Of a stretch of DNA of 64,000 nt, positions 3,822-60,995 are shown piece by piece (within the stretch, counting starts at the first letter, position 1; the number at the start of each line of letters is the position of its first letter). Below the pieces are notes generated by a model. It made no database searches, was not told the origin of the DNA, and worked only from the letters and a program-made list of their open reading frames with translations. The stretch comes from Mycobacterium basiliense (GTDB lineage Bacteria > Actinomycetota > Actinomycetes > Mycobacteriales > Mycobacteriaceae), in the NCBI RefSeq assembly GCF_900292015.1, contig NZ_LR130759.1, positions 4,960,001-5,024,000 on the forward strand, given 5' to 3'. The translations under genes and the position numbers were made by a program.

Positions 3822-3825
3822 TGCG

Positions 3826-36092: not shown

Positions 36093-39000
36093 ATGTCGTA
36101 CCTGCTTGCTGCGCCAGAGACGATGACGGCAGTCGCCGCCGATTTGGCCAGTCTTGGCTCGTCGATCGCTGCCGCCAACGCGGCCGCGGCCAGCCGTACG
36201 ACAACAGTATTGACCGCTGCCGCCGACGAGGTATCCACGGCCATTGCCACGCTCTTCTCCCAGCACGCCGCGGGCTACCAGACGATGGCCGCGCAGGTGG
36301 CGACGTTTCATAGCCAGTTGACGCAAACCCTGAACACGGCCGGGTGGTCATACGCCGCCGCAGAGGCGGCCAACGCATCGCCGCTGGAATCGGCGATTAA
36401 TGCGATAAGTGCGCCGGCGCAAACTTTCCTGTCGCGCCCACTGATCGGCAACGGCGCCAACGCGACGACACCCGGCGGCAACGGCGGAGACGGCGGTTGG
36501 TTGTTTGGCAGCGGCGGCAACGGGGCCGCCGGGGCCGCCGGCCAGGCCGGTGGGCACGGCGGCTCGGCCGGGCTGTGGGGCAATGGTGGCGCGGGCGGCA
36601 CCGGCGGCACGGGCGGCGCTGCCGGCGGTAACGGCGGCAGCGGCGGGCTGCTATTCGGCGCCGGCGGCGCCGGCGGCACGGGCGGCACCGGCGCCACTGG
36701 TTCCATGGGTGGTACCGGCGGCAACGGGGGCAATAGCGCGTGGTTAATAGGCGGCGGCGGCGTCGGCGGGGCCGGCGGCATGGGCGGAACCGACGGCGGT
36801 ACCGGCGGCTACGGCGGTAACGGCGGCGACGGCGCGTGGTTGATTGGCGCCGGTGGGGCGGGCGGAGCCGGTGGCATCGGGGCGACGGGCACCGCAGGCG
36901 GTGGGAATGCCGGTAACGGAGGCACCGGCGGCAACGGCGGCGCGGGTGGACTGTTCATGAACGGCGGGGACGGCGGCGCGGGCGGCCAGGGCGGGGACGG
37001 CACGGCAGGTTCGGCCGCGGCCAGCGCCGGCGGGACCGGAGGAAATGGCGGCCTGGGTGGCAACGGCGGCGCCGGGGGCACGGGCGGTGCTGGGCCGGTG
37101 TTGTTCGGCCACGGTGGCGCCGGCGGCCTCGGCGGCCAGGGCGGCACCGGCGGCATGGGTGGCACCGGCGGCGCCGGCACCAACACCATCACCGCCGGCA
37201 CCGGAGGTGACGGCGGAAATGGCGGGGCGGCCGGCAATGGCGGTGCGGCCGGAGCCGCCGGACTGCTGACCAACGCCGGCCTTGCTGGCACGTTCGGAGC
37301 CGGCGGCACCGGCGGCACCGGCGGCACCGGCGGTGCCGGCGCGATGGGCAGCAACGGCGTCAACCTGGGCGACGACGGCACCGCCGGCTTGGGGGGCGGC
37401 CAAGGCGGTAACGGCGGCAACGGCGGAGCTGCCGTCGGCGGTGGCGTCGCCGGCAACGGCGGGCAGGGCGGCGCCGGCGGTCAAGGCGGAGGCGGAGGCG
37501 ACGGCGCCAACGGAGTCGCCGGTGGCGGCGTCGCCGGCGCTGGTGGCAACGGCGGTAACGGTGGGCTGGGCGGCGAGCCAGGTACCGGTGGTTTCGCCGG
37601 CGCCGGCGGCGGTGGTCAGGCAGGCAGCCTCGGCATCGGCGGCACCGGCGGGACCGGAGGAAATGGCGGCAACGGCAGCAGCGGAGGCGACGGCAGCAAC
37701 GGTGCTACCGCCGCCAACGGGGACCCTGGGGTAGCGGGAGGCGCCGGCGGTAAGGGCGGGGACGGCGGCCAAGGGGGTACCAACGGCACCGGCGGCGACG
37801 GCGGCGACGGCGGCAACGGCGCCGACGGCGGTAGTGGTGGCACCGGCGGCGGGGGGACGTCAACTCAAGCCGGCGGCAACGGTGGCGCGGGGGCCGCTGG
37901 CGGCGACGGCGGCGCGCCCGGAGCGGCCGGCCTGGCCGGTGCGGGTGGTCAAGCAGGCAGCTCTGGCGTTGGCGGCAACGGCGGCTTGGGCGGCAATGGC
38001 GGACAAGGCGGCGACGGCGTCGACGGCGCCGATGGGCTACTTTTCTCCGGCGACGCTGGCGGCGACGGCACCGCGGGCGGCAGTGGTGGTAACGGCGGTT
38101 CGGGCGGGGCCGCCGGCGCGAACGGCGGGACCGGCGGTAGCGGCGGCAACGGCGGCAACGGCGGCCAGGGCGGTAGCGGCGGCGAGGGCGGCAGCGGAAC
38201 CACCGGCATATCCACCGCGCCCGCCGGCGGAGCCGGTGGCGGCGGCGGCAGCGGCGCCAATGGCGGGGCGGGCGGCAACGCCGGCGATGCCGGGGGCATC
38301 GGCGGAACCGGCGGCATCGGCGGCACCGGCGGCAACGCCGGCGTGGGCGGCCAAGGCGGCGCCGGCGGCGCCGCGACGGACCCTGGCCTGGGTGTTGGGA
38401 CTGAGGCAAAGGGCGGGCAAGGAGGTTCCGGCGGCCAAGGCGGCGAGGGCGGGCAAGGCGGCAACGGCGGCGCCGCGGGCGTCGGTGGGCAAGGGGGCGT
38501 CGGCGGAGACGCCGGAAGTGGCGGCGCCGGCGGTAGGGGCGGCGATGGCGGCAACGGTGTGCAGGGCACCACGATCGCGGCCCCCGGATCCGGCGGCGAC
38601 GGCGGTGGTGGCGGCAATGCCGGCAATGGCGGCATTGGCGGCACGGGCGGCGCCGGAGCCACCAACACCCAAGCCGGCAAGGGCGGGACCGGCGGGTCCG
38701 GCGGCAATGCCGGCCGGGGTGGCGACGGCGGCGATGGCGCGTTCGGTGGCCTTACCAGCGATGGCAGGTCAGGTGCGGGCGGCAGCGGTGGCGACGCCGG
38801 CACGGCCGGAAATGGCGGTCAAGGCGGCACCGGCGGCGCTGGGCCCATTCGCGGCAACGGGGGCCTCGGCGGCGACGGCGGCGACGGCGCCGACGGCGGC
38901 GATGGCGCCGCAGGTGCCATCGGCGCACAGTTCGTCCCCGCCAGCAGCTTGCCGACCCCCTCGGGCGGAGCCGGCGGCAGTGGCGGTGGCGGAAGCAACG

Positions 39001-40313
39001 GCGGCGCGCCCGGAGCGGGCGGCAGCCTGGGCACCGGCAGCGGAGGCAGCGCCGGCGCGCAGGGCGCCGGCGGCGACGGCGGAAATGGCGGCAACGGCGG
39101 CAACGGCGGCCAAGGTGCGGGTGCCGTCAATACGGCCTACAGCCCAAACGAGCCCCAGGCCGGGACCGGAACCACCGGCACCTCGGGCACGACGGGCGGT
39201 GACGGGGGCCCCGGCGATGTCGGCATGCCTGACGTCGCCCCGCCGGTAGGAACCCCAATCACGCAAGTCCAGCAGGGCGGAGACGGCGGTGCCGGCGGCG
39301 CTGGGAGCAACGGCAGCGGTGATGCCAGCGGCGGAAAGGGCGGAGCTGGCGGGACCGGCAGCATTCTCGGCGGACCCGGCGGTAACGGCGGCGCCGGCGG
39401 TAACGCCTCGGCCAGCGATACAGCGACGGCCGGTGACGGTGGGCAGGGCGGAGCCGGCGGCGGGTTCGCGGCCGGTGGCAACGGCGGAAACGGCGGCAAC
39501 GTCACCGCCGGATCGACTGGCAGCGTCGCCGGCAACGGCGGTGATGGCGGCAACGCCACGAACGGCACCATCGAAGGTTTTCCCGCTGGTGGCAATGGTG
39601 CTAGCGGGGGGACCGGCGGCAACGGCGGCGACGTGGACCTGGGCGCCACCGGCACCGCCGGCAACGGCGGCAATGGCGGCAACGGCAATGACGGCACCCT
39701 CAATGCCGGCACGGGTGGCAACGGCGGCAACGGCGGCTCGGCCGGCGCCGGCGGTGCCAACGGAGGCAACGGTGGCACCGGGGGTACCGGCGGAAACGGC
39801 GGCAAGGGTGGCAGCGGTGTCATAGGCGGCAGCGGCGGGGGCGGCGGTAACGGCGGCACCAACAACGGCAGCGGTGACAGTGGTAACGGTGGCAACGGCG
39901 GCACCGGCGGCGTCGGCTCTGCGGGTGCGGCCGGCGGCACCGGCGGTCAGGGCGGCAACGGCGGCTCCGCCGGTTCCGGCGGCGGTGTCGCTGGCAACGG
40001 CGGCAGCGGCGGCGCCGGCGGCCAGGGTGGCACCGGCGGCGACGGCGGCGTCGGCGGAGACGGCGGGACGGGCGTCACATCGGGTGCCGGCGGCACCGGC
40101 GGTAACGGAGGCGCCAGCGGTGCCGGTGGGGATGGCGGCAGCGGCGGACTCTCCGGCACCGGACAAGCCGGTGGCGTGGGCGGCGACGGCGACCCGAGCG
40201 AAGACGGGGGCGACGGCCAGGCCGGCACCGGTGCCATCGGCGGTGTGGGCGGCACCGGCGCCACCGGCTCCGATGGCGGCGCCGCCGGTTTGGGCGGCAA
40301 CGCCATAGTGTGA
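36093..40313 (+). CDS. PE_PGRS family protein (at the PE_PGRS53 position)
   Basis: 1406 residues from ATG 36093 (AAGG upstream). The PE domain is residues 1 to about 100 ([20 protein letters not shown]...), with the type VII export motif YxxxE at Tyr87-Glu91 (YAAAE). The linker [15 protein letters not shown] near residues 114-128 is the GRPLI-type outer-membrane anchor. About 1270 residues of Gly-Gly-X/Gly-Ala repeats follow, irregular, with no long fixed period, ending GGNAIV. It should be exported by ESX-5 to the cell surface. Near in size and place to Rv3507. Gly-rich GGXGXD pieces could bind calcium. Confidence 0.93.
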
Positions 40314-41936: not shown

Positions 41937-42776
41937 CTACTCCTTTGCTGGGGTTCGATTAGCGAGCCCGAAGACTCGCTCGGCGTTGGCGTACAGAAAG
42001 TCGCGTCGAGCCTCGTCGGCCAGGCCGAGTTCGTCAAGGCCCGCCAAAGCGTGGGAGTGGGCGATCATCGGGTAGTTGGTACCGAAGAGGACCTTCCGCT
42101 GCCCGGTGCCGGTTTTCATGAACCGGACCAGCTCGTCGGGCAGCCGCTTGATCGTGTAGGCGGAGGTGTCGATGTAGACGTTCTCGTGCTTGCGGGCGAC
42201 AGCAACCATCTCTTCGGTCCACGGATAGCCGACGTGGCCACACACGATCGCCAGCTCCAGAAAATCGAGTGCGACCTGATCGATGTAGGGGATCGGGCGC
42301 CCGGTCTCCGATGGTCGCAACGGGCCGGTGTGCCCTACCTGGGTGCAAAACGGCACTGCCGATTCCACGCACTCGGCGAAAAGCGGATAGTAGCGCCGAT
42401 CGGTGGGTGGCGCGTTCCACAGCCAAGGGACCACCCGCAGGCCGACGAATCCGTCATCGTGCACGCGGCGCCGCAGCTCGCGAACCGCTTGCATCGGATG
42501 ATCGAGGTCGACCGCGGCGAGACCGGCAAACCTGTTTGGGTGCAACCGAACCCATTGTGCGACCTCATCATTGGAGACCAATTCCTGGCCGCCCGGAGCG
42601 TGCCATGCGCTAAGCAAACCCACCCCAACATCGGCGGCATCCATCGAGGCGATGGTCACCTCGATGGGAATCTCGGAATCTGGCGTTGAACCACCGGTCC
42701 AGCGGCGCAGCGAGGCCAACATGTCGCTGCGCAGAAACCGTTGCGAAGGATGCTGCATCCATACATCGATCGTCAT
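41937..42776 (-). CDS. Amidohydrolase family protein (Rv3510c-like)
   Basis: 279 residues, ATG 42776. TIM-barrel amidohydrolase-2 (ACMSD/decarboxylase-like) pattern: TIDVWMQHP at the N-terminus, FCTQVGHTGP near residue 140, and CGHVGYPWTEEM...YIDTSAYTIKRLP near residue 180. LFGTNYPMIAH comes near the end, where canonical members have a metal-binding Asp (GSDYP). The usual HxH is absent (VWM instead), so the metal centre is altered. Paired with ilvX, it suggests a small decarboxylation or C-C lyase pathway; substrate unknown. Confidence 0.85.
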   Translation of the reverse strand: MTIDVWMQHPSQRFLRSDMLASLRRWTGGSTPDSEIPIEVTIASMDAADVGVGLLSAWHAPGGQELVSNDEVAQWVRLHPNRFAGLAAVDLDHPMQAVRELRRRVHDDGFVGLRVVPWLWNAPPTDRRYYPLFAECVESAVPFCTQVGHTGPLRPSETGRPIPYIDQVALDFLELAIVCGHVGYPWTEEMVAVARKHENVYIDTSAYTIKRLPDELVRFMKTGTGQRKVLFGTNYPMIAHSHALAGLDELGLADEARRDFLYANAERVFGLANRTPAKE

Positions 42777-42996: not shown

Positions 42997-45900
42997 GTGT
43001 CGTATGTCTTCGTGTCCCCTGAAGTCGTTTCGGCAGCAGCGGGGGATCTAGCTAGCATCGGTTCTACGGTCAGCCTGGCCAACGCGGCGGTGTCGGCGGC
43101 GACGACCGAGCTGCTCGCGGCCGGCGCCGATGAGGTCTCGATACGAATCGCGGCGCTGTTCGGCGGCCACGGCCTCGAATATCAAGCCGTCAGCGCTCAG
43201 GTTGCGCAGTTCCAGGAGCGATTCATCCAAACGCTGCGGGCCGGCGCCGGCTCATATTCATGGGCCGAGGCCCAAAACGCCGAAGAAGCGTTGTTCGGTT
43301 TGATCAATGCGCCGACCCAGGCGCTGTTGGGGCGCCCACTAATCGGTGACGGTGCCAACGCAACCACCCCTGGCCGCGCCGGGGGCGACGGCGGGATCCT
43401 GTTCGGTAGCGGCGGCAACGGTGCACCTGGTGGACCGCAGCAGGCTGGCGGTGCCGGTGGGTCTGCGGGCATGTGGGGCAACGGCGGCATCGGCGGTGCC
43501 GGCGGTGTCGGCGCGAACGGCGGAGCCGGTGGCAACGGCGGATGGCTGTTGGGTGTAGGCGGCGCCGGGGGCCCCGGTGGAGCCGGTGGAGCCACCGGCG
43601 GCGCTGGCGGTAACGGCGGAATCCTATGGGGCGGCGGCGGTGTCGGCGGCAGTGGAGGGGCCGGCGGCGGCACCGGCGGCGCCGGCGGACGCGGCGAATT
43701 GCTATTCGGCGCCGGCGGCGCGGGCGGCGCCGGCGGCGCGGACGGGGGCACGGGCGGGGCCGGCGGCGACGGCGGAGTCCTATGGGGTGGCGGCGGTACA
43801 GGCGGAGCTGGCGGGGCCGGCGGCGGCACCGGCGGCGCCGGCGGACGCGGCGAATTGCTATTCGGCGCCGGCGGCGCGGGCGGGGCCGGCGGCACCGGCG
43901 GGGGTGCGGGTGGGGCCGGCGGCGACGGCGGGCTCTTGATTGGCGGTGGCGGAGCTGGCGGCGCCGGTGGAGTCGGCGGCGGCACCGGCGGTGCCGGCGG
44001 GCGCGCCGAGTTCCTGTTCGGCGCGGGCGGCGCCGGCGGCGCCGGCGGAGCGGGCACCGACACTGCTCCAGGTGGTGGCTCCGGCGGTGCCGGCGGCGCC
44101 GGCGGAGCGGGCGGAGCCGGCTGGTTGTTCAGCCACGGCGGCGCCGGTGGCGCTGGCGGTGCTGGTGGGGCAGGCGGCTCGGGCAGCAACGGCGGGCCGC
44201 TAGGCGGTACCGGTGGAGCCGGGGGTACGGGCGGTGCGGGTGGAGCCGGCGGCCACGGAGCTTTGCTGTTCGGCGGCGCAGGAGGCGGGGGCGTTGGCGG
44301 CGCCGGCGGGATCGGTGGCACCGGCGGCACCGGTGCCGACGGCGATCTAGCCGGCCTGGGCGGTATCGGCGGCACTGGCGGCACCGGCGGCGTTGGGGGT
44401 ACCTCAGGCCAAGGGGGGGCCGGTGGTGCTGCCGGTCAATTCTTTAGTTCCGGGGGCGCCGCGGGCGGCACGGGCACTAACGGCGCCGGGGGTTCCGGCG
44501 GTGCTGGTGGGGCCGGGGCTGCCGGCGCCGACGCAGCGCCTGGCTCCGGGGCTACCGGTGGAGCCGGCTTTGCCGGGGGTGCCGGCGGCGCGGGTGGGGA
44601 CGGCGGCGGAACTGGTGCCAGCCAAGGTGCTGGCGGCGTAGGCGGTCACGGTGGCGTTGGCGGTGGCGGTGGCACCGGTGGGGATGGGATCGATAACAGC
44701 GCCAACCCCGGTGTGGCCGGGGGTGACGGTGGTGGCGGCGGTAAAGGTGGAGCCGGCGGCGCCGCCGGGCTCGGTGGTAATGGTCTGGGTGGGCAAGCGG
44801 CCTCCGGGACTGCTGGCGATGGGGGGTCCGGTGGGATCGGTGGTACCGGCGGCGCTGGTGGGGCTGGGGCGATGGGTGCGGCCGGTGGCGGCACCGGCGA
44901 CCAAGGCGCTACCGGTGGGGCCGGCGGCCAAGGCGGGGATGGCGGGGACGCCGGCAACGCCAACGGCGGCACCGCCGGCCAACAAGGCGCCGGCGGCCAA
45001 GGCGGCACCGGCGGCACCGGCGGTGGCGGCGGACAAGGCGGGAATGGCACTGATAACAGCGCCAACCCCGGCCTGGTCGGCGGTGACGGTGGTATGGGCG
45101 GCACTGGTGGCACCGGCGGCGCCGCAGGCCTCGGCGGGGTCGGCACCGGAGGCCAAGCCGCAGCGGGGACTGCCGGCGATGGCGGCACCGGCGGGATCGG
45201 TGGTACCGGCGGCGCTGGTGGGGCCGGGGCGATGGGTGCGACCGGGGGCGGCACCGGCGACCAAGGCGCTACCGGTGGGGCCGGCGGCCAGGGCGGGGAT
45301 GGCGGGGACGCCGGCAATGCCAACGGCGGCACCGCCGGCCAACAAGGCGCGGGCGGCACCGGCGGGACCGGCGGCACCGGCGGTGGCGGCGGACAAGGCG
45401 GGAATGGCACTGATAACAGCGCCAACCCCGGCCTGGTCGGCGGTGACGGTGGTATGGGCGGCACTGGTGGCACCGGTGGCGCTGCCGGCCTCGGCGGCAA
45501 TGGTTTGGGCGGGCAAGCCGCAGCGGGTACTGCCGGCGATGGCGGCACCGGCGGGATCGGTGGTACCGGCGGCGCTGGTGGGGCTGGGGCGATGGGTGCG
45601 ACCGGGGGCGGCACCGGCGACCAAGGCGCTACCGGTGGGGCCGGCGGCCAAGGCGGGGATGGCGGGGACGCCGGCAACGCCAACGGCGGCACCGCCGGCC
45701 AACAAGGCGCGGGCGGCACCGGCGGCACCGGCGGCACCGGCGGTGGCGGCGGACAAGGCGGGAATGGCACTGATAACAGCGCCAACCCCGGCCTGGTCGG
45801 CGGTGACGGTGGTATGGGCGGCACTGGTGGCACCGGTGGCGCTGCCGGCCTCGGCGGCAATGGTTTGGGCGGGCAAGCCGCAGCGGGTACTGCCGGCGAT

Positions 45901-48900
45901 GGCGGCACCGGCGGGATCGGTGGTACCGGCGGCGCTGGTGGGGCTGGGGCGATGGGTGCGGCCGGTGGCGGCACCGGCGACCAAGGCGCTACCGGTGGGG
46001 CCGGCGGCCAAGGCGGCGACGGCGGGGACGCCGGCAATGCCAACGGCGGCACCGCCGGCCAACAAGGCGCGGGCGGCACCGGCGGCACCGGCGGCACCGG
46101 CGGTGGCGGCGGACAAGGCGGGAATGGCACTGATAACAGCGCCAACCCCGGCCTGGTCGGCGGTGACGGTGGTATGGGCGGCACTGGTGGCACCGGTGGC
46201 GCCGCAGGCCTCGGCGGCAATGGTCTGGGCGGGCAAGCCGCAGCGGGTACTGCCGGCGATGGCGGCACCGGCGGGATCGGTGGTACCGGCGGCGCTGGTG
46301 GGGCTGGGGCGATGGGTGCGGCCGGGGGCGGCACCGGCGACCAAGGCGCTACCGGTGGGGCCGGCGGCCAAGGCGGGGATGGCGGGGACGCCGGCAACGC
46401 CAACGGCGGCACCGCCGGCCAACAAGGCGCGGGCGGCACCGGCGGCACCGGCGGCACCGGCGGCACTGGAGGCACCGGCGGGAATGGCACCGATAACAGC
46501 GCCAACCCCGGCCTGGTCGGCGGTGACGGTGGTATGGGCGGCACTGGTGGCACCGGCGGCGCTGCCGGCCTCGGCGGCAATGGTTTGGGCGGGCAAGCCG
46601 CAGCGGGTACTGCCGGCGATGGCGGCACCGGCGGGATCGGTGGTACCGGCGGCGCTGGTGGGGCTGGGGCGATGGGTGCGACCGGGGGCGGCACCGGCGA
46701 CCAAGGCGCTACCGGTGGGGCCGGCGGCCAGGGCGGGGATGGCGGGGACGCCGGCAATGCCAACGGCGGCACCGCCGGCCAACAAGGCGCGGGCGGCACC
46801 GGCGGGACCGGCGGCACCGGCGGCACTGGAGGCACCGGCGGGAATGGCACTGATAACAGCGCCAACCCCGGCCTGGTCGGCGGTGACGGTGGTATGGGCG
46901 GCACTGGTGGCACCGGTGGCGCTGCCGGCCTCGGCGGCAATGGTTTGGGCGGGCAAGCGGCCTCCGGGACTGCCGGCGATGGCGGCACCGGCGGGATCGG
47001 TGGTACCGGCGGCGCTGGTGGGGCTGGGGCGATGGGTGCGACCGGGGGCGGCACCGGCGACCAAGGCGCTACCGGCGGGGCCGGCGGCCAAGGCGGGGAT
47101 GGCGGGGACGCCGGCAACGCCAACGGCGGCACCGCCGGCCAACAAGGCGCGGGCGGCACCGGCGGCACCGGCGGCACCGGCGGTGGCGGCGGACAAGGCG
47201 GTGCCGGTACCGATAACAGCGCCAACCCCGGCCTGGTCGGCGGTGACGGTGGTATGGGCGGCACTGGTGGCACCGGTGGCGCTGCCGGCCTCGGCGGCAA
47301 TGGTTTGGGCGGGCAAGCCGCAGCGGGTACTGCCGGCGATGGCGGCACCGGTGGGATCGGTGGTACCGGCGGCGCTGGTGGGGCTGGGGCGATGGGTGCG
47401 GCCGGGGGCGGCACCGGCGACCAAGGCGCTACCGGTGGGGCCGGCGGCCAAGGCGGGGATGGCGGGGACGCCGGCAACGCCAACGGCGGCACCGCCGGCC
47501 AACAAGGCGCGGGCGGCACCGGCGGCACCGGCGGCACCGGCGGCACTGGAGGCACCGGCGGGAATGGCACTGATAACAGCGCCAACCCCGGCCTGGTCGG
47601 CGGTGACGGTGGTATGGGCGGCACTGGTGGCACCGGTGGCGCTGCCGGCCTCGGCGGCAATGGTTTGGGCGGGCAAGCCGCAGCGGGTACTGCCGGCGAT
47701 GGCGGCACCGGTGGGATCGGTGGTACCGGCGGCGCTGGTGGGGCCGGGGCGATGGGTGCGACCGGGGGCGGCACCGGCGACCAAGGCGCTACCGGTGGGG
47801 CCGGCGGCCAAGGCGGCGACGGCGGGGACGCCGGCAACGCCAACGGCGGCACCGCCGGCCAACAAGGCGCGGGCGGCACCGGCGGCACCGGCGGCACCGG
47901 CGGCACTGGAGGCACCGGCGGGAATGGCACCGACAACAGCGCCAACCCCGGCCTGGTCGGCGGCCAAGGCGGCAAAGGCGGCACTGGTGGCACCGGCGGC
48001 GCCGCCGGCCTCGGCGGGGTCGGCACCGGAGGCCAAGCCGCAGCGGGTACTGCCGGCGATGGCGGCACCGGCGGGATCGGTGGTACCGGCGGCGCTGGTG
48101 GGGCCGGGGCGATGGGTGCGACCGGGGGCGGCACCGGCGACCAAGGCGCTACCGGCGGGGCCGGCGGCCAAGGCGGCGACGGCGGGGACGCCGGCAACGC
48201 CAACGGCGGCACCGCCGGCCAACAAGGCGCCGGCGGCCAAGGCGGCACCGGCGGCACCGGCGGTGGCGGCGGCCAAGGCGGGAATGGCACCGACAACAGC
48301 GCCAACCCCGGCCTGGTCGGCGGCCAAGGCGGCAAAGGCGGCACTGGTGGCACCGGCGGCGCCGCAGGCCTCGGCGGGGTCGGCACCGGAGGCCAAGCCG
48401 CAGCGGGGACTGCCGGCGATGGCGGCACCGGCGGCAAGGGTGGTACCGGCGGCGCTGGTGGGGCCGGGGCGATGGGTGCGACCGGGGGCGGCACCGGCGA
48501 CCAAGGCGCTACCGGCGGGGCCGGCGGCCAAGGCGGCAACGGCGGGGACGCCGGCAACGCCAACGGCGGCACCGCCGGCCAACAAGGCGCGGGCGGCACC
48601 GGCGGCACCGGCGGCACCGGCGGTGGCGGCGGACAAGGCGGTGCCGGTACCGATAACAGCGCCAACCCCGGCCTGGTCGGCGGTGACGGTGGTATGGGCG
48701 GCACTGGTGGCACCGGCGGCGCCGCCGGGCTCGGCGGCAATGGTCTGGGCGGGCAAGCGGCCTCCGGCACCGCCGGGGACGGCGGCACCGGCGGACAAGG
48801 CGGCACCGGCGGACAAGGCGGGGCCGGCAGCACCGGCGCCGCCAACGGCGGCACCGGCGGACAAGGCGCCACCGGGGGCGCCGGCGGCCAAGGCGGCAAC

Positions 48901-51900
48901 GGCGGCGACGCCGGCAACGCCAACGGCGGCACCGCCGGCCAACAAGGCGCGGGCGGCACCGGCGGCACCGGCGGCACCGGCGGCACTGGAGGCACCGGCG
49001 GGAATGGCACCGACAACAGCGCCAACCCCGGCCTGGTCGGCGGTGACGGTGGTATGGGCGGCACTGGTGGCACCGGCGGCGCCGCAGGCCTCGGCGGCAA
49101 TGGTCTGGGTGGGCAAGCGGCCTCCGGGACTGCCGGCGATGGCGGCACCGGCGGGATCGGTGGTACCGGCGGCGCTGGTGGGGCCGGGGCGATGGGTGCG
49201 ACCGGGGGCGGCACCGGCGACCAAGGCGCTACCGGCGGGGCCGGCGGCCAAGGCGGCGACGGCGGGGACGCCGGCAACGCCAACGGCGGCACCGCCGGCC
49301 AACAAGGCGCGGGCGGCACCGGCGGCACCGGCGGCACCGGCGGTGGCGGCGGACAAGGCGGGAATGGCACCGACAACAGCGCCAACCCCGGCCTGGTCGG
49401 CGGTGACGGTGGTATGGGCGGCACTGGTGGCACCGGTGGCGCCGCCGGCCTCGGCGGCAATGGTTTGGGCGGGCAAGCCGCAGCGGGTACTGCCGGCGAT
49501 GGCGGCGCCGGCGGCAAGGGTGGTACCGGCGGCGCTGGTGGGGCCGGGGCGATGGGTGCGACCGGGGGCGGCACCGGCGACCAAGGCGCTACCGGCGGGG
49601 CCGGCGGCCAAGGCGGCGACGGCGGGGACGCCGGCAACGCCAACGGCGGCACCGCCGGCCAACAAGGCGCCGGCGGCCAAGGCGGCACCGGCGGCACCGG
49701 CGGTGGCGGCGGACAAGGCGGGAATGGCACTGATAACAGCGCCAACCCCGGCCTGGTCGGCGGTGACGGTGGTATGGGCGGCACTGGTGGCACCGGCGGC
49801 GCCGCAGGCCTCGGCGGGGTCGGCACCGGAGGCCAAGCCGCAGCGGGGACTGCCGGCGATGGCGGCACCGGCGGGATCGGTGGTACCGGCGGCGCTGGTG
49901 GGGCCGGGGCGATGGGTGCGACCGGGGGCGGCACCGGCGACCAAGGCGCTACCGGCGGGGCCGGCGGCCAAGGCGGCGACGGCGGGGACGCCGGCAACGC
50001 CAACGGCGGCACCGCCGGCCAACAAGGCGCCGGCGGCCAAGGCGGCACCGGCGGCACCGGCGGTGGCGGCGGACAAGGCGGGAATGGCACCGACAACAGC
50101 GCCAACCCCGGCCTGGTCGGCGGCCAAGGCGGCAAAGGCGGCACTGGTGGCACCGGCGGCGCCGCCGGCCTCGGCGGCAATGGTTTGGGCGGGCAAGCCG
50201 CAGCGGGTACTGCCGGGGACGGCGGCACCGGCGGCAAGGGTGGTACCGGCGGCGCTGGTGGGGCCGGGGCGATGGGTGCGACCGGTGGCGGCACCGGCGA
50301 CCAAGGCGCTACCGGCGGGGCCGGCGGCCAAGGCGGCGACGGCGGGGACGCCGGCAACGCCAACGGCGGCACCGCCGGCCAACAAGGCGCGGGCGGCACC
50401 GGCGGCACCGGCGGCACCGGCGGTGGCGGCGGACAAGGCGGGAATGGCACCGACAACAGCGCCAACCCCGGCCTGGTCGGCGGTGACGGTGGTATGGGCG
50501 GCACTGGTGGCACCGGTGGCGCTGCCGGCCTCGGCGGCAATGGTTTGGGCGGGCAAGCCGCAGCGGGTACTGCCGGCGATGGCGGCACCGGCGGGATCGG
50601 TGGTACCGGCGGCGCTGGTGGGGCCGGGGCGATGGGTGCGACCGGGGGCGGCACCGGCGACCAAGGCGCTACCGGCGGGGCCGGCGGCCAAGGCGGCGAC
50701 GGCGGGGACGCCGGCAACGCCAACGGCGGCACCGCCGGCCAACAAGGCGCGGGCGGCACCGGCGGCACCGGCGGCACCGGCGGCACTGGAGGCACCGGCG
50801 GGAATGGCACCGACAACAGCGCCAACCCCGGCCTGGTCGGCGGTGACGGTGGTATGGGCGGCACTGGTGGCACCGGCGGCGCCGCCGGCCTCGGCGGCAA
50901 TGGTTTGGGCGGGCAAGCCGCAGCGGGTACTGCCGGCGATGGCGGCACCGGCGGCAAGGGTGGTACCGGCGGCGCTGGTGGGGCCGGGGCGATGGGTGCG
51001 ACCGGGGGCGGCACCGGCGACCAAGGCGCTACCGGTGGGGCCGGCGGCCAAGGCGGCGACGGCGGGGACGCCGGCAACGCCAACGGCGGCACCGCCGGCC
51101 AACAAGGCGCGGGCGGCCAAGGCGGCACCGGCGGCACCGGCGGTGGCGGCGGCCAAGGCGGTGCCGGTACCGATAACAGCGCCAACCCCGGCCTGGTCGG
51201 CGGCCAAGGCGGCAAAGGCGGCACTGGTGGCACCGGCGGCGCCGCAGGCCTCGGCGGGGTCGGCACCGGAGGCCAAGCCGCCTCCGGCACCGCCGGGGAC
51301 GGCGGCACCGGCGGACAAGGCGGCACCGGCGGACAAGGCGGGGCCGGCAGCACCGGCGCCGCCAACGGCGGCACCGGCGGACAAGGCGCCACCGGGGGCG
51401 CCGGCGGCCAAGGCGGCAACGGCGGCGACGCCGGCAACGCCAACGGCGGCACCGCCGGCCAACAAGGCGCCGGCGGCACCGGCGGCACCGGCGGCACCGG
51501 CGGCACTGGAGGCACCGGCGGGAATGGCACCGATAACAGCGCCAACCCCGGCCTGGTCGGCGGTGACGGTGGTATGGGCGGCACTGGTGGCACCGGTGGC
51601 GCCGCCGGGCTCGGCGGCAATGGTCTGGGTGGGCAAGCGGCCTCCGGGACTGCCGGCGATGGCGGCACCGGCGGCAAGGGTGGTACCGGCGGCGCTGGTG
51701 GGGCCGGGGCGATGGGTGCGGCCGGTGGCGGCACCGGCGACCAAGGCGCTACCGGCGGGGCCGGCGGCCAAGGCGGGGATGGCGGGGACGCCGGCAACGC
51801 CAACGGCGGCACCGCCGGCCAACAAGGCGCGGGCGGCACCGGCGGCACCGGCGGCACCGGCGGCACTGGAGGCACCGGCGGGAATGGCACCGACAACAGC

Positions 51901-54900
51901 GCCAACCCCGGCCTGGTCGGCGGCCAAGGCGGCAAAGGCGGCACTGGTGGCACCGGCGGCGCCGCCGGCCTCGGCGGGGTCGGCACCGGAGGCCAAGCCG
52001 CAGCGGGTACTGCCGGCGATGGCGGCACCGGCGGGATCGGTGGTACCGGCGGCGCTGGTGGGGCCGGGGCGATGGGTGCGACCGGGGGCGGCACCGGCGA
52101 CCAAGGCGCTACCGGCGGGGCCGGCGGCCAAGGCGGCGACGGCGGGGACGCCGGCAACGCCAACGGCGGCACCGCCGGCCAACAAGGCGCCGGCGGCCAA
52201 GGCGGCACCGGCGGCACCGGCGGTGGCGGCGGACAAGGCGGGAATGGCACCGACAACAGCGCCAACCCCGGCCTGGTCGGCGGCGACGGTGGTATGGGCG
52301 GCACTGGTGGCACCGGCGGCGCCGCCGGCCTCGGCGGGGTCGGCACCGGAGGCCAAGCCGCAGCGGGTACTGCCGGCGATGGCGGCACCGGCGGCAAGGG
52401 TGGTACCGGCGGCGCTGGTGGGGCCGGGGCGATGGGTGCGACCGGGGGCGGCACCGGCGACCAAGGCGCTACCGGTGGGGCCGGCGGCCAAGGCGGCGAC
52501 GGCGGGGACGCCGGCAACGCCAACGGCGGCACCGCCGGCCAACAAGGCGCGGGCGGCACCGGCGGCACCGGCGGCACCGGCGGTGGCGGCGGCCAAGGCG
52601 GGAATGGCACTGATAACAGCGCCAACCCCGGTGTAGCCGGCGGCAAAGGCGGCACCGGCGGCACCGGCGGCACCGGCGGCGCCGCAGGCCTCGGCGGTAC
52701 CGGCACCGGCGGACAAGCCGCAGCGGGTACTGCCGGCGATGGCGGCACCGGCGGCAAGGGTGGTACCGGCGGCGCTGGTGGGGCCGGGGCGATGGGTGCG
52801 GCCGGTGGCGGCACCGGCGACCAAGGCGCTACCGGCGGGGCCGGCGGCCAAGGCGGCGACGGCGGGGACGCCGGCAACGCCAACGGCGGCACCGCCGGCC
52901 AACAAGGCGCGGGCGGCACCGGCGGCACCGGCGGCACCGGCGGCACTGGAGGCACCGGCGGGAATGGCACCGATAACAGCGCCAACCCCGGCCTGGTCGG
53001 CGGTGACGGTGGTATGGGCGGCACTGGTGGCACCGGTGGCGCCGCCGGCCTCGGCGGCAATGGTCTGGGCGGGCAAGCCGCAGCGGGTACTGCCGGCGAT
53101 GGCGGCACCGGCGGGATCGGTGGTACCGGCGGCGCTGGTGGGGCCGGGGCGATGGGTGCGACCGGGGGCGGCACCGGCGACCAAGGCGCTACCGGTGGGG
53201 CCGGCGGCCAAGGCGGCGACGGCGGGGACGCCGGCAACGCCAACGGCGGCACCGCCGGCCAACAAGGCGCGGGCGGCACCGGCGGCACCGGCGGCACCGG
53301 CGGTGGCGGCGGACAAGGCGGGAATGGCACCGACAACAGCGCCAACCCCGGCCTGGTCGGCGGTGACGGTGGTATGGGCGGCACTGGTGGCACCGGTGGC
53401 GCTGCCGGCCTCGGCGGCAATGGTTTGGGCGGGCAAGCCGCAGCGGGTACTGCCGGCGATGGCGGCACCGGCGGGATCGGTGGTACCGGCGGCGCTGGTG
53501 GGGCCGGGGCGATGGGTGCGACCGGGGGCGGCACCGGCGACCAAGGCGCTACCGGCGGGGCCGGCGGCCAAGGCGGCGACGGCGGGGACGCCGGCAACGC
53601 CAACGGCGGCACCGCCGGCCAACAAGGCGCGGGCGGCACCGGCGGCACCGGCGGCACCGGCGGCACTGGAGGCACCGGCGGGAATGGCACCGACAACAGC
53701 GCCAACCCCGGCCTGGTCGGCGGTGACGGTGGTATGGGCGGCACTGGTGGCACCGGCGGCGCCGCCGGCCTCGGCGGCAATGGTTTGGGCGGGCAAGCCG
53801 CAGCGGGTACTGCCGGCGATGGCGGCACCGGCGGCAAGGGTGGTACCGGCGGCGCTGGTGGGGCCGGGGCGATGGGTGCGACCGGGGGCGGCACCGGCGA
53901 CCAAGGCGCTACCGGTGGGGCCGGCGGCCAAGGCGGCGACGGCGGGGACGCCGGCAACGCCAACGGCGGCACCGCCGGCCAACAAGGCGCGGGCGGCCAA
54001 GGCGGCACCGGCGGCACCGGCGGTGGCGGCGGCCAAGGCGGTGCCGGTACCGATAACAGCGCCAACCCCGGCCTGGTCGGCGGCCAAGGCGGCAAAGGCG
54101 GCACTGGTGGCACCGGCGGCGCCGCAGGCCTCGGCGGGGTCGGCACCGGAGGCCAAGCCGCCTCCGGCACCGCCGGGGACGGCGGCACCGGCGGACAAGG
54201 CGGCACCGGCGGACAAGGCGGGGCCGGCAGCACCGGCGCCGCCAACGGCGGCACCGGCGGACAAGGCGCCACCGGGGGCGCCGGCGGCCAAGGCGGCAAC
54301 GGCGGCGACGCCGGCAACGCCAACGGCGGCACCGCCGGCCAACAAGGCGCGGGCGGCACCGGCGGCACCGGCGGCACCGGCGGCACTGGAGGCACCGGCG
54401 GGAATGGCACCGATAACAGCGCCAACCCCGGCCTGGTCGGCGGTGACGGTGGTATGGGCGGCACTGGTGGCACCGGTGGCGCCGCCGGGCTCGGCGGCAA
54501 TGGTCTGGGTGGGCAAGCGGCCTCCGGGACTGCCGGCGATGGCGGCACCGGCGGCAAGGGTGGTACCGGCGGCGCTGGTGGGGCCGGGGCGATGGGTGCG
54601 ACCGGGGGCGGCACCGGCGACCAAGGCGCTACCGGCGGGGCCGGCGGCCAAGGCGGCGACGGCGGGGACGCCGGCAACGCCAACGGCGGCACCGCCGGCC
54701 AACAAGGCGCCGGCGGCCAAGGCGGCACCGGCGGCACCGGCGGTGGCGGCGGACAAGGCGGGAATGGCACCGACAACAGCGCCAACCCCGGCCTGGTCGG
54801 CGGCCAAGGCGGCAAAGGCGGCACTGGTGGCACCGGCGGCGCCGCAGGCCTCGGCGGGGTCGGCACCGGAGGCCAAGCCGCAGCGGGGACTGCCGGCGAT

Positions 54901-57900
54901 GGCGGCACCGGCGGGATCGGTGGTACCGGCGGCGCTGGTGGGGCCGGGGCGATGGGTGCGACCGGGGGCGGCACCGGCGACCAAGGCGCTACCGGCGGGG
55001 CCGGCGGCCAAGGCGGCGACGGCGGGGACGCCGGCAACGCCAACGGCGGCACCGCCGGCCAACAAGGCGCGGGCGGCACCGGCGGCACCGGCGGCACCGG
55101 CGGCACTGGAGGCACCGGCGGGAATGGCACCGATAACAGCGCCAACCCCGGCCTGGTCGGCGGTGACGGTGGTATGGGCGGCACTGGTGGCACCGGTGGC
55201 GCCGCCGGGCTCGGCGGCAATGGTTTGGGCGGGCAAGCCGCAGCGGGTACTGCCGGCGATGGCGGCACCGGCGGCAAGGGTGGTACCGGCGGCGCTGGTG
55301 GGGCCGGGGCGATGGGTGCGGCCGGGGGCGGCACCGGCGACCAAGGCGCTACCGGTGGGGCCGGCGGCCAAGGCGGGGATGGCGGGGACGCCGGCAACGC
55401 CAACGGCGGCACCGCCGGCCAACAAGGCGCGGGCGGCACCGGCGGCACCGGCGGCACCGGCGGCACTGGAGGCACCGGCGGGAATGGCACTGATAACAGC
55501 GCCAACCCCGGCCTGGTCGGCGGCCAAGGCGGCAAAGGCGGCACTGGTGGCACCGGCGGCGCCGCCGGGCTCGGTGGGGTCGGCACCGGAGGCCAAGCCG
55601 CAGCGGGTACTGCCGGCGATGGCGGCACCGGCGGGATCGGTGGTACCGGCGGCGCTGGTGGGGCCGGGGCGATGGGTGCGACCGGGGGCGGCACCGGCGA
55701 CCAAGGCGCTACCGGTGGGGCCGGCGGCCAAGGCGGCGACGGCGGGGACGCCGGCAACGCCAACGGCGGCACCGCCGGCCAACAAGGCGCGGGCGGCCAA
55801 GGCGGCACCGGCGGCACCGGCGGTGGCGGCGGACAAGGCGGGAATGGCACCGACAACAGCGCCAACCCCGGCCTGGTCGGCGGCGACGGTGGTATGGGCG
55901 GCACTGGTGGCACCGGCGGCGCCGCCGGCCTCGGCGGGGTCGGCACCGGAGGCCAAGCCGCAGCGGGTACTGCCGGCGATGGCGGCACCGGCGGGATCGG
56001 TGGTACCGGCGGCGCTGGTGGGGCCGGGGCGATGGGTGCGACCGGGGGCGGCACCGGCGACCAAGGCGCTACCGGTGGGGCCGGCGGCCAAGGCGGCGAC
56101 GGCGGGGACGCCGGCAACGCCAACGGCGGCACCGCCGGCCAACAAGGCGCGGGCGGCACCGGCGGCACCGGCGGCACCGGCGGCACTGGAGGCACCGGCG
56201 GGAATGGCACCGACAACAGCGCCAACCCCGGCCTGGTCGGCGGTGACGGTGGTATGGGCGGCACTGGTGGCACCGGCGGCGCCGCCGGCCTCGGCGGCAA
56301 TGGTTTGGGCGGGCAAGCCGCAGCGGGTACTGCCGGCGATGGCGGCACCGGCGGCAAGGGTGGTACCGGCGGCGCTGGTGGGGCCGGGGCGATGGGTGCG
56401 ACCGGGGGCGGCACCGGCGACCAAGGCGCTACCGGTGGGGCCGGCGGCCAAGGCGGCGACGGCGGGGACGCCGGCAACGCCAACGGCGGCACCGCCGGCC
56501 AACAAGGCGCGGGCGGCCAAGGCGGCACCGGCGGCACCGGCGGTGGCGGCGGCCAAGGCGGTGCCGGTACCGATAACAGCGCCAACCCCGGCCTGGTCGG
56601 CGGCCAAGGCGGCAAAGGCGGCACTGGTGGCACCGGCGGCGCCGCAGGCCTCGGCGGGGTCGGCACCGGAGGCCAAGCCGCCTCCGGCACCGCCGGGGAC
56701 GGCGGCACCGGCGGACAAGGCGGCACCGGCGGACAAGGCGGGGCCGGCAGCACCGGCGCCGCCAACGGCGGCACCGGCGGACAAGGCGCCACCGGGGGCG
56801 CCGGCGGCCAAGGCGGCAACGGCGGCGACGCCGGCAACGCCAACGGCGGCACCGCCGGCCAACAAGGCGCCGGCGGCACCGGCGGCACCGGCGGCACCGG
56901 CGGCACTGGAGGCACCGGCGGGAATGGCACCGACAACAGCGCCAACCCCGGCCTGGTCGGCGGCCAAGGCGGCAAAGGCGGCACTGGTGGCACCGGCGGC
57001 GCCGCAGGCCTCGGCGGTACCGGCACCGGCGGACAAGCCGCCTCCGGCACCGCCGGCGACGGTGGCACCGGCGGACAAGGCGGCAGCGGCGGCACCGGCG
57101 GCGTTGGCAGCGCAGGCGCCGCCAACGGCGGCAACGGCGGACAAGGCGCCACCGGGGGCGCCGGCGGCCAAGGTGGCACCGGCGGTGCGGCCGGTTCCGG
57201 TACCGGTGGCAAGCAGGGAGTCGGCGGCCTCGGCGGAAACGGCGGCAACGGCGGCAACGGCGGCAACGGCGGCGCCGGCACCGACAACAGCGCCAATATG
57301 ACGGCGAAAGCCGGCGGCGACGGCGGCCAGGGCGGCCAGGGCGGCGCCGGCGGCGCCGCCGGCGCCGGCGGTAGCGGCTCGGTCACGGGTGGCAACGGCA
57401 CCGGCGGGACCGGCGGCACCGGTGGTGTGGGCGGCACCGGCGGCCACGGCGGCCAGGGCCCCCTCAATAGCGACCCCGGTGGCATTGGGGGCAAGGGCGG
57501 CGACGGCGGCACCGGCGGTACCGGCGGCGCTGGCATAGGTGCCACCGGCGGAGGCATCGGTGGGATCGGCGGCGCGGCAGGCGACGGTGGCACTGGCGGA
57601 GACGGCGGCGAGGTCGGTGGCCCCGGCGGCGTCGGCGGAGCTGCCGGCACCGGCGGCACCGGCGGCACCGGCGGCATCGGCGGCGGCTCCGGTGGCAAAG
57701 GCGGCGCTGGCGGCAACGGCGGAAACGGCGGCATAGGCGACCCTCGGGTCGGTGGTTCTGGCGGCGACGGGGGCGCCGGCGGCAAGGGCGGCGCTGCCGG
57801 TGCTGGCGGGAAGGGCGGCGACGCTGGTGCCGGCGGTAATGGCAACGGCGGTGCCGGCGGGAGCGGAGGCATTGGCGGCACCGGCGGTATCGGCGGAGAC

Positions 57901-59139
57901 GCCGAGCCCGGCGCCGGGGGCAAGGGCGGAGCTGGCGGCGCGGGCGGTACCGGCGGTACTGCCGGCGCCGGCGGCAGCGGGTCCGGTGCAGGAGCTAACG
58001 GTGGCTCCGGTAGCGGTGGCGGCGGCGGAAACGGCGGCACCGGCGGGGCCGGCAGCACGGGCGCAAACGCAAACGCCGGTAGCGGGGCCGCCGGCGGTGT
58101 GGGCTTTGCCGGGGGCGCCGGCGGAGCCGGCGGGACCGGCGGCGCCGGCATTGGTGGGACCGGTGGCGGAAACGGCGGAAACGGCGGAAACGGCGGCATC
58201 GCCGGAAACGGCGGAAACGGCGGATCCGGCGGGACCAACCAAAACGGCGGCAACGGCGGAGCCGGCGGGACCGGCGGTGCAGGTGGTGCCGCCGGCTCCG
58301 GCGGTGCCGGCGGTGGGGCCAACGGTACCGGTGGAACTGGAGGTGCCGGAGGAAGTGGCGGCAACGGCGGAAAGGGCGGCGCCGTAAACGGCAATGGCAC
58401 AGCTGGCCGCCCCGGCGGAATCGGTGGTAGGGGCGGTGACGGCGGTACCGGCGGTGCCGGCATCGGTTCCACTGGTGGTGGCACCGGCGGAGCCGGCGGC
58501 CACGCCGGCAACGGCGGCGACGGCGGTGCTGGCGGTAACCGCACCTCTGGGAATGGGACCGGCGGTATCGGCGGTATGGGCGGTGCGGCCGGCACGGGGG
58601 GCAACGGCGGAGCCGGAGGAACTGGCGGCGGCAACGGCGGTACCGCCGGCGACGGTGGCAGCGGCGGTGGCGGCGGCGCAGGCGGCAACGCCCGTGCCGC
58701 CGGTACGGGCACTGGCGGCGCGGGCGGCGCGGGTGGCGCCGCCGGTAACGGCGGCACGGGCGGCAACGCCGGTGTCGGCGGGAACGGCAACGGAGGGGCA
58801 GGTGGCACCGGCGGCGCCGGCGGCGGTGGTGGCATCGGCGGGACCGGCGGCGGCAACGGCAGCGGAGGCGCGGGCGGCGGTGGCGGCGCTGGTGCAGTTG
58901 GTGGCACCGGCGGTGCAGGTGGTAGCGGTGCCGGTACCGGCACCGGCGGAACCGGTGGCGGCGGCGGCCACGGCGGAAACGGGGGCAAGGGCGGCGCTGG
59001 CGACGGTGGCGTCGTTCCCGGCATCAACGGCACCAGCGGGGGTGTCGGCACGGCCGGCAAGGGCCCTTCCGGTGTCCTGGGCGGGACCGGCGGAACCGGG
59101 GGCAAAGCCGGCACCGGTGGCAGCGGAGGCCAACCCTGA
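42997..59139 (+). CDS. Giant PE_PGRS protein with 120-residue tandem repeats
   Basis: 5380 residues from GTG 42997 (GGAGAG, 8 nt upstream); the frame upstream has a TTG at 42982 with no ribosome site. The PE domain ([20 protein letters not shown]) has YxxxE at Tyr87-Glu91 and [16 protein letters not shown] near residue 111. Gly-Ala repeats with a 52-residue period run from about residue 208 to 365. A 35-copy array of a 120-residue unit fills about residues 569-4765, then an irregular PGRS tail to GGSGGQP. It occupies the place of PE_PGRS55/56/57 and fadD18 in H37Rv. Estimated mass near 0.4 MDa. Predicted surface protein exported by ESX-5. The assembly of the array needs long-read support. Confidence 0.9.
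43621..44090 (+). repeat. 156-bp (52-residue) tandem repeat in the N-terminal PGRS
   Basis: About three copies: ILWGG at 43621, VLWGG at 43777 and LLIGG at 43933, spaced exactly 156 bp. Each unit has a second hydrophobic mark, ELLFGAGG or EFLFGAGG, near its centre. Separate from and unlike the 360-bp array downstream. Confidence 0.8.
50341..51720 (+). repeat. Higher-order duplicated block, copy A
   Basis: Matches 53221-54600 (2880 bp = 8 units away) over 1380 bp with one difference, C at 51471 against G at 54351. Its part 50701-51533 is identical to 56101-56933 (15 units away). Confidence 0.85.
53221..54600 (+). repeat. Higher-order duplicated block, copy B
   Basis: Near-identical to copy A at 50341-51720. 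Units 25-27 here repeat the allele order of units 17-19. Confidence 0.85.
56101..56933 (+). repeat. Higher-order duplicated block, copy C
   Basis: Identical by eye over 833 bp to 50701-51533, and one base different from 53581-54413. Covers parts of units 32-34. Confidence 0.82.
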
Positions 59140-59283: not shown

Positions 59284-60930
59284 TCATCCGCCGGCCGCCA
59301 CATGGCTCGCATGCACGTCATCGGCGGGGCGAGCCTCCGTCTGTTCCTTGGCCCAGCGGTAATCGGGCTTGCCCGCGGGTGAGCGCTTCACCTCGTCGAC
59401 AAACCAAAGACTGCGCGGCACTTTGTATCCCGCGATCTCAGAGCGCACGAAGCTATCCAATTCAGCCAGCGACGGGCGGCAGCCGGACCGGGCTTGCACG
59501 ACCGCAGCCACGTGCTGCCCGTACCGCGGATCGGGCACCCCGACCACCAAGGCGTCGAACACGTCGGGATGGCCTTTCAACGCCGCTTCGACTTCTTCGG
59601 GGTAGATCTTTTCACCACCGCTGTTGATGGACACCGAGCCACGACCCAGCATGGTGACAGTACCGTCTTCCTCGACCTGTGCGTAGTCACCCGGAATCGC
59701 ATAGCGCACACCATTGATCGTGCGGAACGTCTCGGCGGTCTTCTTCTCGTCCTTGTAGTAGCCGACGGGAATGTTGCCTTTCTTGGCGATGAAGCCGCGC
59801 ACGCCCGACCCGGGCTGCACCTCGTTACCGTCCTCATCGAGTACGACGGTGCGATGGTCAATGCTCACGCGCGGACCACCACTGTGCGGCGCCCCCGAGG
59901 CGACGATGCTGGTGCCGCCAAATCCGGTCTCCGACGAGCCAATTGAGTCCGTGATAACCCGATTCGGCAGCAGTTCAAGGAGTTTCTCTTTAATACTCGG
60001 CGAGAACAAGGCCGCGGTGCTGGCCAGCAGAAATAGCGAAGAAAGATCGTAGTCGTTGTCTTTCTGCAGCGCATCGAGTAGCGGCCGGGCCATGGCATCG
60101 CCAGTGAAGAACAAGAGGCTTACTTTGTGCTTGTGGATCGTGCGCCATACCTCGTCGGCATTGAATTCCGGTGCTAGAACCGTGGTTTGACCCGAGAAGA
60201 TCGACATCCAGGTGGCCGACTGGGTGGCGCCGTGGATCATCGGCGGAATTGGATAGCGGATCATCGGCGGGTTGGCGGCGGCGGCTTTCGCCAGGTCGTA
60301 TTCGTCCTTGACGAATTCTCCTGTCGCGAAGTCGGTTCCACCAAAAAGCACCCGGTAGATGTCCTCATGGCGCCACATCACGCCCTTCGGAAAGCCGGTC
60401 GTACCACCGGTATACAGCAGGTAGATGGCGTCGGCGCTGCGTTCGCCGAAGTCGCGCTCGGGTGAACTGTCAGCGATCGCCGAGTAGAACTCGACGCCGC
60501 CGTAGCGCTGGTAGTCCGTATCGCTGCCATCCTCGACGACCAGGATCGTCTTCACGTTGGGGGTTTCGGGCAACACGTTGGCCACGCGGTCCGAGTACTG
60601 CCGCTCGTGGACCAGCGCCACCATGTCGGAGTTGTCGAACAGGTATCGAAGTTCCCCTTCGACATACCGAAAGTTGACGTTCACCAGAATGGCGCCCGCC
60701 TTGATGATGCCGAGCATCGCGATGACGATCTCGATGCGGTTGCGGCAGTAAAGACCGACCTTGTCGTCCTGCTGGACGCCCTGGCCGATCAGATAGTGCG
60801 CAAGACGGTTGGCTTTCTCCTCCAGTTGGGCGTAGGTCAGCTGCTCATCGCCGCAGATGAGGGCTACGCGGTCAGGCACAGCGTCGATGGCGTGCTCAGC
60901 GAGATCGGCAATATTCAGGGCCACGGCCAC
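59284..60930 (-). CDS. fadD19: Steroid side-chain acyl-CoA ligase FadD19
   Basis: 548 residues from GTG 60930, the same length and N-terminus (VAVALNIADLAEHAID) as Rv3515c. Motifs: YTGGTTGFPKGVM near residue 175, SIGSSETGFGG near residue 320, hinge YAQVEEDGTVTMLGRGS with INSGGEK near residue 440, and the C-terminal catalytic Lys in RSPAGKPDY. FadD19 makes the CoA ester of the C26/C27 cholestenoate side chain, the step before FadE26-FadE27. There is no ribosome site before the GTG and the KstR operator ends 5 nt away, which suggests a leaderless transcript. The paralogue fadD18 of H37Rv is absent here. Confidence 0.95.
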   Translation of the reverse strand: MAVALNIADLAEHAIDAVPDRVALICGDEQLTYAQLEEKANRLAHYLIGQGVQQDDKVGLYCRNRIEIVIAMLGIIKAGAILVNVNFRYVEGELRYLFDNSDMVALVHERQYSDRVANVLPETPNVKTILVVEDGSDTDYQRYGGVEFYSAIADSSPERDFGERSADAIYLLYTGGTTGFPKGVMWRHEDIYRVLFGGTDFATGEFVKDEYDLAKAAAANPPMIRYPIPPMIHGATQSATWMSIFSGQTTVLAPEFNADEVWRTIHKHKVSLLFFTGDAMARPLLDALQKDNDYDLSSLFLLASTAALFSPSIKEKLLELLPNRVITDSIGSSETGFGGTSIVASGAPHSGGPRVSIDHRTVVLDEDGNEVQPGSGVRGFIAKKGNIPVGYYKDEKKTAETFRTINGVRYAIPGDYAQVEEDGTVTMLGRGSVSINSGGEKIYPEEVEAALKGHPDVFDALVVGVPDPRYGQHVAAVVQARSGCRPSLAELDSFVRSEIAGYKVPRSLWFVDEVKRSPAGKPDYRWAKEQTEARPADDVHASHVAAGG

Positions 60931-60935
60931 CAAAC

Positions 60936-60949
60936 TAGAACGTGTTACA
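60936..60949. promoter_or_regulatory. KstR operator between fadD19 and echA19
   Basis: TAGAACGTGTTACA, the same 14 bases as the fdxD/fadE26 operator and a full match to TNNAACNNGTTNNA. It lies 5 nt upstream of the fadD19 start and 46 nt upstream of echA19, so it should cover both promoters. Confidence 0.88.
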
Positions 60950-60995
60950 TTTCTTGACAAGCGAACGCGCAGATGTCGAACGAGAGGCGGTTACC

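Follow-up and report, generated by a model that had tools for sequence, protein, structure and literature searches.

A giant PE_PGRS gene of Mycobacterium basiliense carries 34 repeat units of constant length that are probably kept alike by recombination between them

Introduction

Why should a tandem repeat of more than 12 kb keep one and the same unit length from end to end? The question is raised by a PE_PGRS gene in a 64,000-nucleotide stretch of the Mycobacterium basiliense genome (contig NZ_LR130759.1, positions 4,960,001 to 5,024,000), referred to here as the window, whose numbering is used for all features of this locus. The gene (42997..59139, plus strand, GTG start) encodes 5,380 amino acids in an open frame without internal stop, and about three quarters of the protein consist of a core array of 34 units of 360 bp (44797..57036, plus strand, residues 601-4680) that contains no insertion or deletion (indel). 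The original prediction, made from the sequence alone, had recognized the single open reading frame of over 16 kb and its 34 successive intervals of exactly 360 bp, both of which were confirmed, and had read the missing length change as a sign of either very recent amplification or a structural need for a 120-residue unit. M. basiliense is described as a slow grower recovered from human lungs in PMC6331445, and its genome is a single contig of 5,607,630 bases.

Results

Regularity of the core array

The marker A[AS]GTAGDGG was found 35 times in the translation, and each of the 34 intervals between its occurrences measured exactly 120 residues; the array is counted here as 34 core units flanked at either end by a single diverged copy. 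Tandem Repeats Finder reported a period of 360 from 44659 to 57074, with 34.5 copies, 90% matches and 0% indels. Of the shifts compared (seven, at 3-bp intervals between 351 and 369), 360 alone gave 90-bp windows of more than 80% identity (n = 10,394), indicating that the periodicity is not due to chance. The core units shared a mean pairwise DNA identity of 91% (minimum 79%), varied at 97 of the 360 sites and comprised 31 distinct sequences. When the DNA of a single unit was compared with the own genome, with 40 of the 366 candidates scored and ranked by score, the matches listed included 34 places of at least 83% identity, all inside the giant gene, followed by the two edge units at 71%. The left edge unit (44437..44796, plus strand) had a mean amino acid identity of 0.69 to the core and carried three aromatic residues (Phe, Trp or Tyr; F/W/Y), and the right one (57037..57387, plus strand), of 117 residues, had an identity of 0.71.

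The longest exact repeats within the array were of 1,154 bp at a distance of 8 units, 857 bp at 15 units and 794 bp at 7 units. The first of them, the block 50317..51470 (plus strand), recurs exactly at 53197-54350, suggesting a duplication of several units at once, and units 16, 17 and 18 (counted from 0) differed from units 24, 25 and 26 by 0, 0 and 1 nucleotides, respectively.

Recombination among the units

The relationships of the units were evaluated against 311 units from ten other Mycobacterium genomes, denoted below by G numbers. The 34 core units formed an exclusive clade (FastTree support 0.976), with an amino acid identity of 0.944 within the core (minimum 0.858) and of 0.687 between core and foreign units (maximum 0.795), and the expectation that the units are specific to their lineage was thus borne out. 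The edge units fell outside the core clade and were about as near to their best foreign unit (0.71 for the left and 0.73 for the right edge) as to the core. Considering all 349 units from the own and the ten other genomes, 322 were nearest to a unit that carries the same array label. In the tested tree sets the exclusive groups were the own core, the array of G194 and that array of G236 which lies beside an acyl-CoA synthetase gene (59284..60960, minus strand, in the window) that we take to be fadD19-like from gene order; in the nearest-neighbour comparison, the units of G271 and of a second G026 locus were exclusive too.

Linkage between variable sites within the core unit decayed from r2 = 0.635 for sites no more than 15 bp apart to 0.036 for those more than 220 bp apart, a decay that 0 of 2,000 permutations of the site positions attained, and all four gametes were present at 1,896 of 3,486 pairs of variable sites. 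The same decay was detected in the seven arrays that could be tested, the own included (0 of 1,000 permutations each), and was weakest in G120; in an eighth array, from G064, the units were too alike and the variable sites too few for the linkage test. Because the core is an exclusive clade, its edges are outlying and linkage decays within the unit, the 360-bp units probably recombine in register or undergo gene conversion, which would hold them alike and equally long.

Expected number of indels

The ratio of substitutions to indels was estimated from all pairs among 13 representative units, one taken from the window array and one from each of 12 further arrays. The between-array pairs accumulated 8,195 substitutions and 143 indel events, a ratio of 57 to 1 that is rough, since the pairs among 13 representatives are not independent. 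With 97 to 120 substitutions in its units (at least 111 by minimum count), the core would thus be expected to contain 1.6 to 2.1 indels, and the probability of observing none is 0.12-0.20. On this rough figure, the constant unit length needs no special cause, and the structural need for 120 residues that had been drawn from the missing indels does not follow. If the displaced ends of the G236 units are set aside, gaps among the 13 units were located at three sites, namely around the NGG of the AGNANGG loop, within and behind TDNSAN, and at the end of the unit.

Homologous arrays in other Mycobacterium genomes

The unit was matched in 41 of 396 sampled genomes of the genus, own included; 11 candidate stretches were scored per genome, which makes the unit counts lower bounds. 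Longer stretches were analysed from 24 of the 40 other matching genomes; the unit scores there carry no composition correction, so that weak irregular matches may reflect plain glycine-richness. Arrays with at least 8 spacings of one length were detected in G026 (116 residues, and 118 at the second locus), in G202, G120 and G047 (119), in G064 and G236 (115) and in G194 (114), together with short stretches of 120 residues in G227 and G271. G026 carried a 5,585-residue open frame of 116-residue units with a 348-bp periodicity across at least 22 kb, and G202 a 357-bp periodicity across 19.6 kb. The window array is therefore neither the only one of its kind nor the longest (that of G026 is longer): relatives exist, most of them with other unit lengths, which removes the special standing of 120 residues.

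The flanking synthetase was present in all the genomes asked (41/41, own included), and the locus beside it was inspected in 21 other genomes, several of the regions being cut by contig ends. Long regular arrays were found there in three genomes (G202, 119; G120, 119; G236, 115), at least two successive equal spacings in six (G047, 118, as 118/119; G218, 118; G057, 118; G006, 119; G064, 111; G194, 111), and irregular matches alone in nine (G227, G105, G284, G029, G326, G235, G113, G026 and G210); no match above 100 bits was obtained beside the synthetase in the other three (G023, G229 and G350). Several species hence share this kind of module at one chromosomal site, with unit lengths that differ between lineages.

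At this locus the arrays of G202 (L049/L029), G006 (L050) and G236 (L064) were split over several reading frames, with spacings of, for example, 356, 353 and 344 bp, which may reflect decay or sequencing error. Units of equal length were nearly identical in the 345-bp arrays of G064 (L035, G064:C2:51879-61315; nucleotide diversity, pi, 0.001 among 26 units) and G236 (L064, G236:C1:5872656-5887548; pi 0.000 among 8 units), which may be due to amplification in the very recent past or to the assembly. The contigs of G047, G113, G218, G326 and G057 (L051, L061, L054, L058 and L056) stop less than about 6 kb from the synthetase, within a glycine-rich frame that runs off the contig, and draft genomes can therefore hide such arrays. 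On the synthetase side of G064 (L062, G064:C1:5560662-5565574) an extra repeat of 585 bp (195 residues) represents a different long module.

The relationship of the own genome to the sample was assessed with rpoB, scored in all 396 genomes: 371 matched at E 1e-300 (own included), and the best other genome showed 91% identity, indicating that the sample holds no close relative with which the amplification could be dated. The nearest kin of M. basiliense are M. marinum and M. ulcerans according to PMC6331445; neither was present among the best 80 of 570 named loci, a set that may omit entries very close to the window. The full protein, queried with its regions 1-720 and 3000-3480, gave no match at E 0.001 in the protein database (1,228 and 1,243 candidates scored, respectively), for which low-complexity correction is suspected, and a scan of genome contigs for the unit pattern gave 597 pattern matches and no relative by tblastn.

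Domains and chromosomal setting

The predicted protein begins with a PE domain (residues 4-94, 43006..43278, plus strand; Pfam PF00934, 117 bits, cut-off 22), close to the end of which the translation reads YSWAE (residues 87-91), a YxxxE motif; YxxxD/E is a type VII secretion signal. A GRPLI motif (residues 112-116, 43330..43344, plus strand) separates it from the PGRS region, which starts with a segment ahead of the array (residues 121-480, 43357..44436, plus strand) with F/W/Y in its loops and a PF21526 match (residues 116-184; 41.6 bits, cut-off 27). PF00934, GRPLI and PF21526 together establish the PE_PGRS identity that had been proposed. Downstream of the right edge unit, translation and composition indicate an irregular C-terminal PGRS segment (57388..59136, plus strand), and glycine accounts for 51-58% of each segment past residue 120. 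In the program listing of open reading frames the frame starts at an in-frame TTG (42982). With 5,409 residues from stop to stop, it exceeds every other frame among the 134 PE matches that were listed for this genome when 150 of 186 candidates were scored; frames of 3,198 and 2,606 residues come next among them.

The gene order of the region is FadD17 (NF005897, 983 bits, cut-off 850), a second PE_PGRS gene (36093-40313), a thiamine pyrophosphate (TPP) enzyme, an amidohydrolase (41937..42776, minus strand; PF04909), the giant PE_PGRS gene, the acyl-CoA synthetase (PF00501, NF005863), which served as synteny anchor, EchA19 (NF051848, 446 bits, cut-off 400) and a cytochrome P450. The neighbouring PE_PGRS gene (plus strand, 1,406 residues) showed no detectable long-period array. 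Opposite the giant gene, a minus-strand frame of 4,909 residues (44404-59133) is also open, presumably as a by-product of the GGX codons and of a period divisible by three. Another PE_PGRS cluster of the own genome (G000:C1:5.28-5.335 Mb, and L048, G000:C1:5270001-5290000) contains the 3,198-residue frame, 354-bp repeats at 5282114-5283635 and repeats of 600/606 bp, with weaker DNA matches to the unit.

Discussion

The simplest reading of these data is that short tracts are exchanged in register between the units, which are mosaics of common variants. Whole units could be gained or lost in this way while their length stays constant, and a single length would spread through an array yet be free to differ between lineages, as is seen. 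Repeat arrays that evolve in concert are known in general, their homogenization being due to recombination between repeats. Here, identity was higher within than between arrays for the own core and not for those of G202, G120, G047 and G006, the edges were diverged, and signs of exchange were present. In M. tuberculosis, pe_pgrs27/28 are likewise homogenized by recombination between repeats, as gene conversion, according to PMC12046097; unlike that pair, the exchange proposed here takes place inside one gene, between 34 in-frame units. In PMC12817950, 17 of 25 structural variants in pe/ppe genes were in frame, which its authors ascribe to mechanism.

Several observations weigh against this interpretation, in addition to the roughness of the indel ratio and the uncorrected composition of the unit matches. 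Grouping by genome is not general: units from G202, G120, G047 and G006 are intermingled, exclusive groups are also lacking for G026, G064 and the second G236 locus, and mixed unit lengths occur within single arrays at the second G236 locus (115, 116, 118, 119 and others), in G194 (114, 113 and 111) and also in G006. A change in copy number was not observed in the one strain considered. Taken by itself, the block signal is modest evidence, since 83 of 2,000 shuffled unit orders reached a run of similar unit pairs as long as the one observed. As to the fold of the units, structure prediction of three of them with AlphaFold2, which had been proposed as a check, yielded no usable model, with mean values of the predicted local distance difference test (pLDDT) of 36.0 (job A1; 23 rows, three of them filler) and 31.8 (job A2; 34 rows, two filler).

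A structural need that fixes the unit at exactly 120 residues, any other length breaking a repeating fold or a lateral lattice, seems unlikely. The residues of the core units do stay under constraint: mean nonsynonymous (dN) and synonymous (dS) divergences were 0.052 and 0.226 over 557 unit pairs (dN/dS 0.23), and just 2 of the 63 consensus glycines vary, which fits such a need, as does the lack of any indel in 34 units. However, this lack is not improbable by chance, homologous arrays of 119, 118, 116, 115, 114 and 111 residues exist, several of them at the same locus and several regular, and mixed lengths occur inside three of the arrays. A narrower form of the idea may hold, in which the module has to keep its four GGX runs while the three variable-length sites are free to change. 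The same dN/dS argues against selection for antigenic diversity or a decoy function as the force that maintains unit variation, with recombination as its tool; 20 of the 120 residue positions do vary among units, and PE_PGRS proteins are discussed as immune decoys in PMC9436101, but third codon positions hold 68% of the pairwise differences (12,237 of 18,004), and we consider this explanation very unlikely.

It is also improbable that very recent amplification accounts for most of the array, or misassembly of a long repeat for part of it. Such a reading is favoured by the identity of units 16/24 and of units 17/25/32 (numbering from 0), by the exact repetition of the 1,154-bp block, by the nearly identical units of G064 and G236, and by the frame-broken arrays of G202, G006 and G236, which hint at poor assembly or decay of such loci. 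Against this stand a mean dS of 0.23 between units, with which recency alone, as originally suggested, is not compatible, and the 31 distinct sequences among 34 units, which, with a longest exact repeat of 1,154 bp, would allow long reads to anchor the array; the usual PacBio read length exceeds 1,154 bp. The source genome is reported as a single scaffold from PacBio RSII (mean 140x) plus Illumina data in PMC6331445. Plausibly, the 7- and 8-unit blocks are the only places left for a wrong unit count. Overall, the original observation is sound and the array real and well formed, in a PE_PGRS gene of a kind itself known; a need for 120 residues and simple recency are unlikely after the comparison, and recombination in register is the probable explanation.

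What such an array might do can be considered from its composition. Twelve F/W/Y were counted in residues 121-481, three in the left edge unit (482-601), none in the 4,080 core residues (602-4681) and one in the 582 C-terminal residues; the core has a net charge of -162, and each unit contains four GGX runs of at least three triplets (residues 9-23, 40-51, 66-83 and 95-109). In PMC9436101 and PMC10216338, PGRS regions are modelled as modular poly-glycine-II sandwiches that dock in the mycomembrane by an aromatic edge and from which even numbers of helices can be lost or gained. The PE domain would direct the giant protein out of the cell by the type VII (ESX-5) route, and the protein may be located at the surface. 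Following the published sail model, the aromatic-bearing residues 121-480 would dock in the mycomembrane, and the acidic core would form a long hydrophilic poly-glycine-II rod or spacer carried by the docked sail, its length set by the number of units; this division is suggested by the absence of F/W/Y from the core as against the PGRS nearer the PE domain. Since the GGX runs per unit are even in number, the strand direction of the sandwich would not be altered by the gain or loss of a unit. The 120-residue unit was also evaluated as a doubled hairpin of about 60 residues, a candidate that found no support in the window's unit, whose score was reached by 262 of 1,000 shuffles; in the other arrays it was reached by 0 of 1,000 at the second G236 locus and in G064, and by 1 to 229 of 1,000 in the other ten.

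Features in common with the PE_PGRS family, as represented by M. tuberculosis PE_PGRS33 and Wag22, are the PE domain, the GRPLI motif and, downstream of it, a PGRS rich in GGX with F/W/Y in its loops; the giant gene differs in its size of 5,380 encoded residues and in a regular array of 34 units free of aromatics, as compared with 498 residues in H37Rv PE_PGRS33 and 54 predicted poly-glycine-II helices in Wag22 (PMC10216338). Similar systems are the long-period arrays of M. gordonae DSM 44160 (G120), M. gastri DSM 43505 (G218), M. attenuatum MK41 (G057), G202, G047, G026, G236, G064 and G194, in which a homologous module is repeated in tandem, often with one length per array and in several of these genomes at the same locus, with units mostly of 111-119 residues instead of 120; the matches of M. 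gastri and M. attenuatum are few units at contig ends. By gene order the region presumably corresponds to that of M. tuberculosis PE_PGRS53-57, between fadD17 and fadD19, a likeness of position and not of sequence; in the 4.4-Mb genome G350, no strong unit match was found in the 20 kb beside the same synthetase. Just as the original prediction knew of no PE_PGRS organized in this way, no description of such long-period PGRS arrays was found in the literature searched, most subscription papers lying outside it.

More tentatively, these arrays may belong to a class of "rod PGRS" surface proteins across slow-growing mycobacteria, each with an aromatic-footed sail and an aromatic-free poly-glycine-II rod of four-strand modules of 111-120 residues, the reach of which could be tuned strain by strain by in-register gain and loss of modules, with the fadD19 site as a shared hot spot; the class would have been concealed by draft assemblies, whose contigs stop within the arrays. 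The locus offers a natural experiment on PGRS growth, in which one site in several species carries one module with different unit lengths, and a recombination footprint that is readable inside a single gene. The array separates structural constraint from homogenization, two ideas that are easily merged, and it predicts a length variation of a surface-type protein that would be invisible to short reads.

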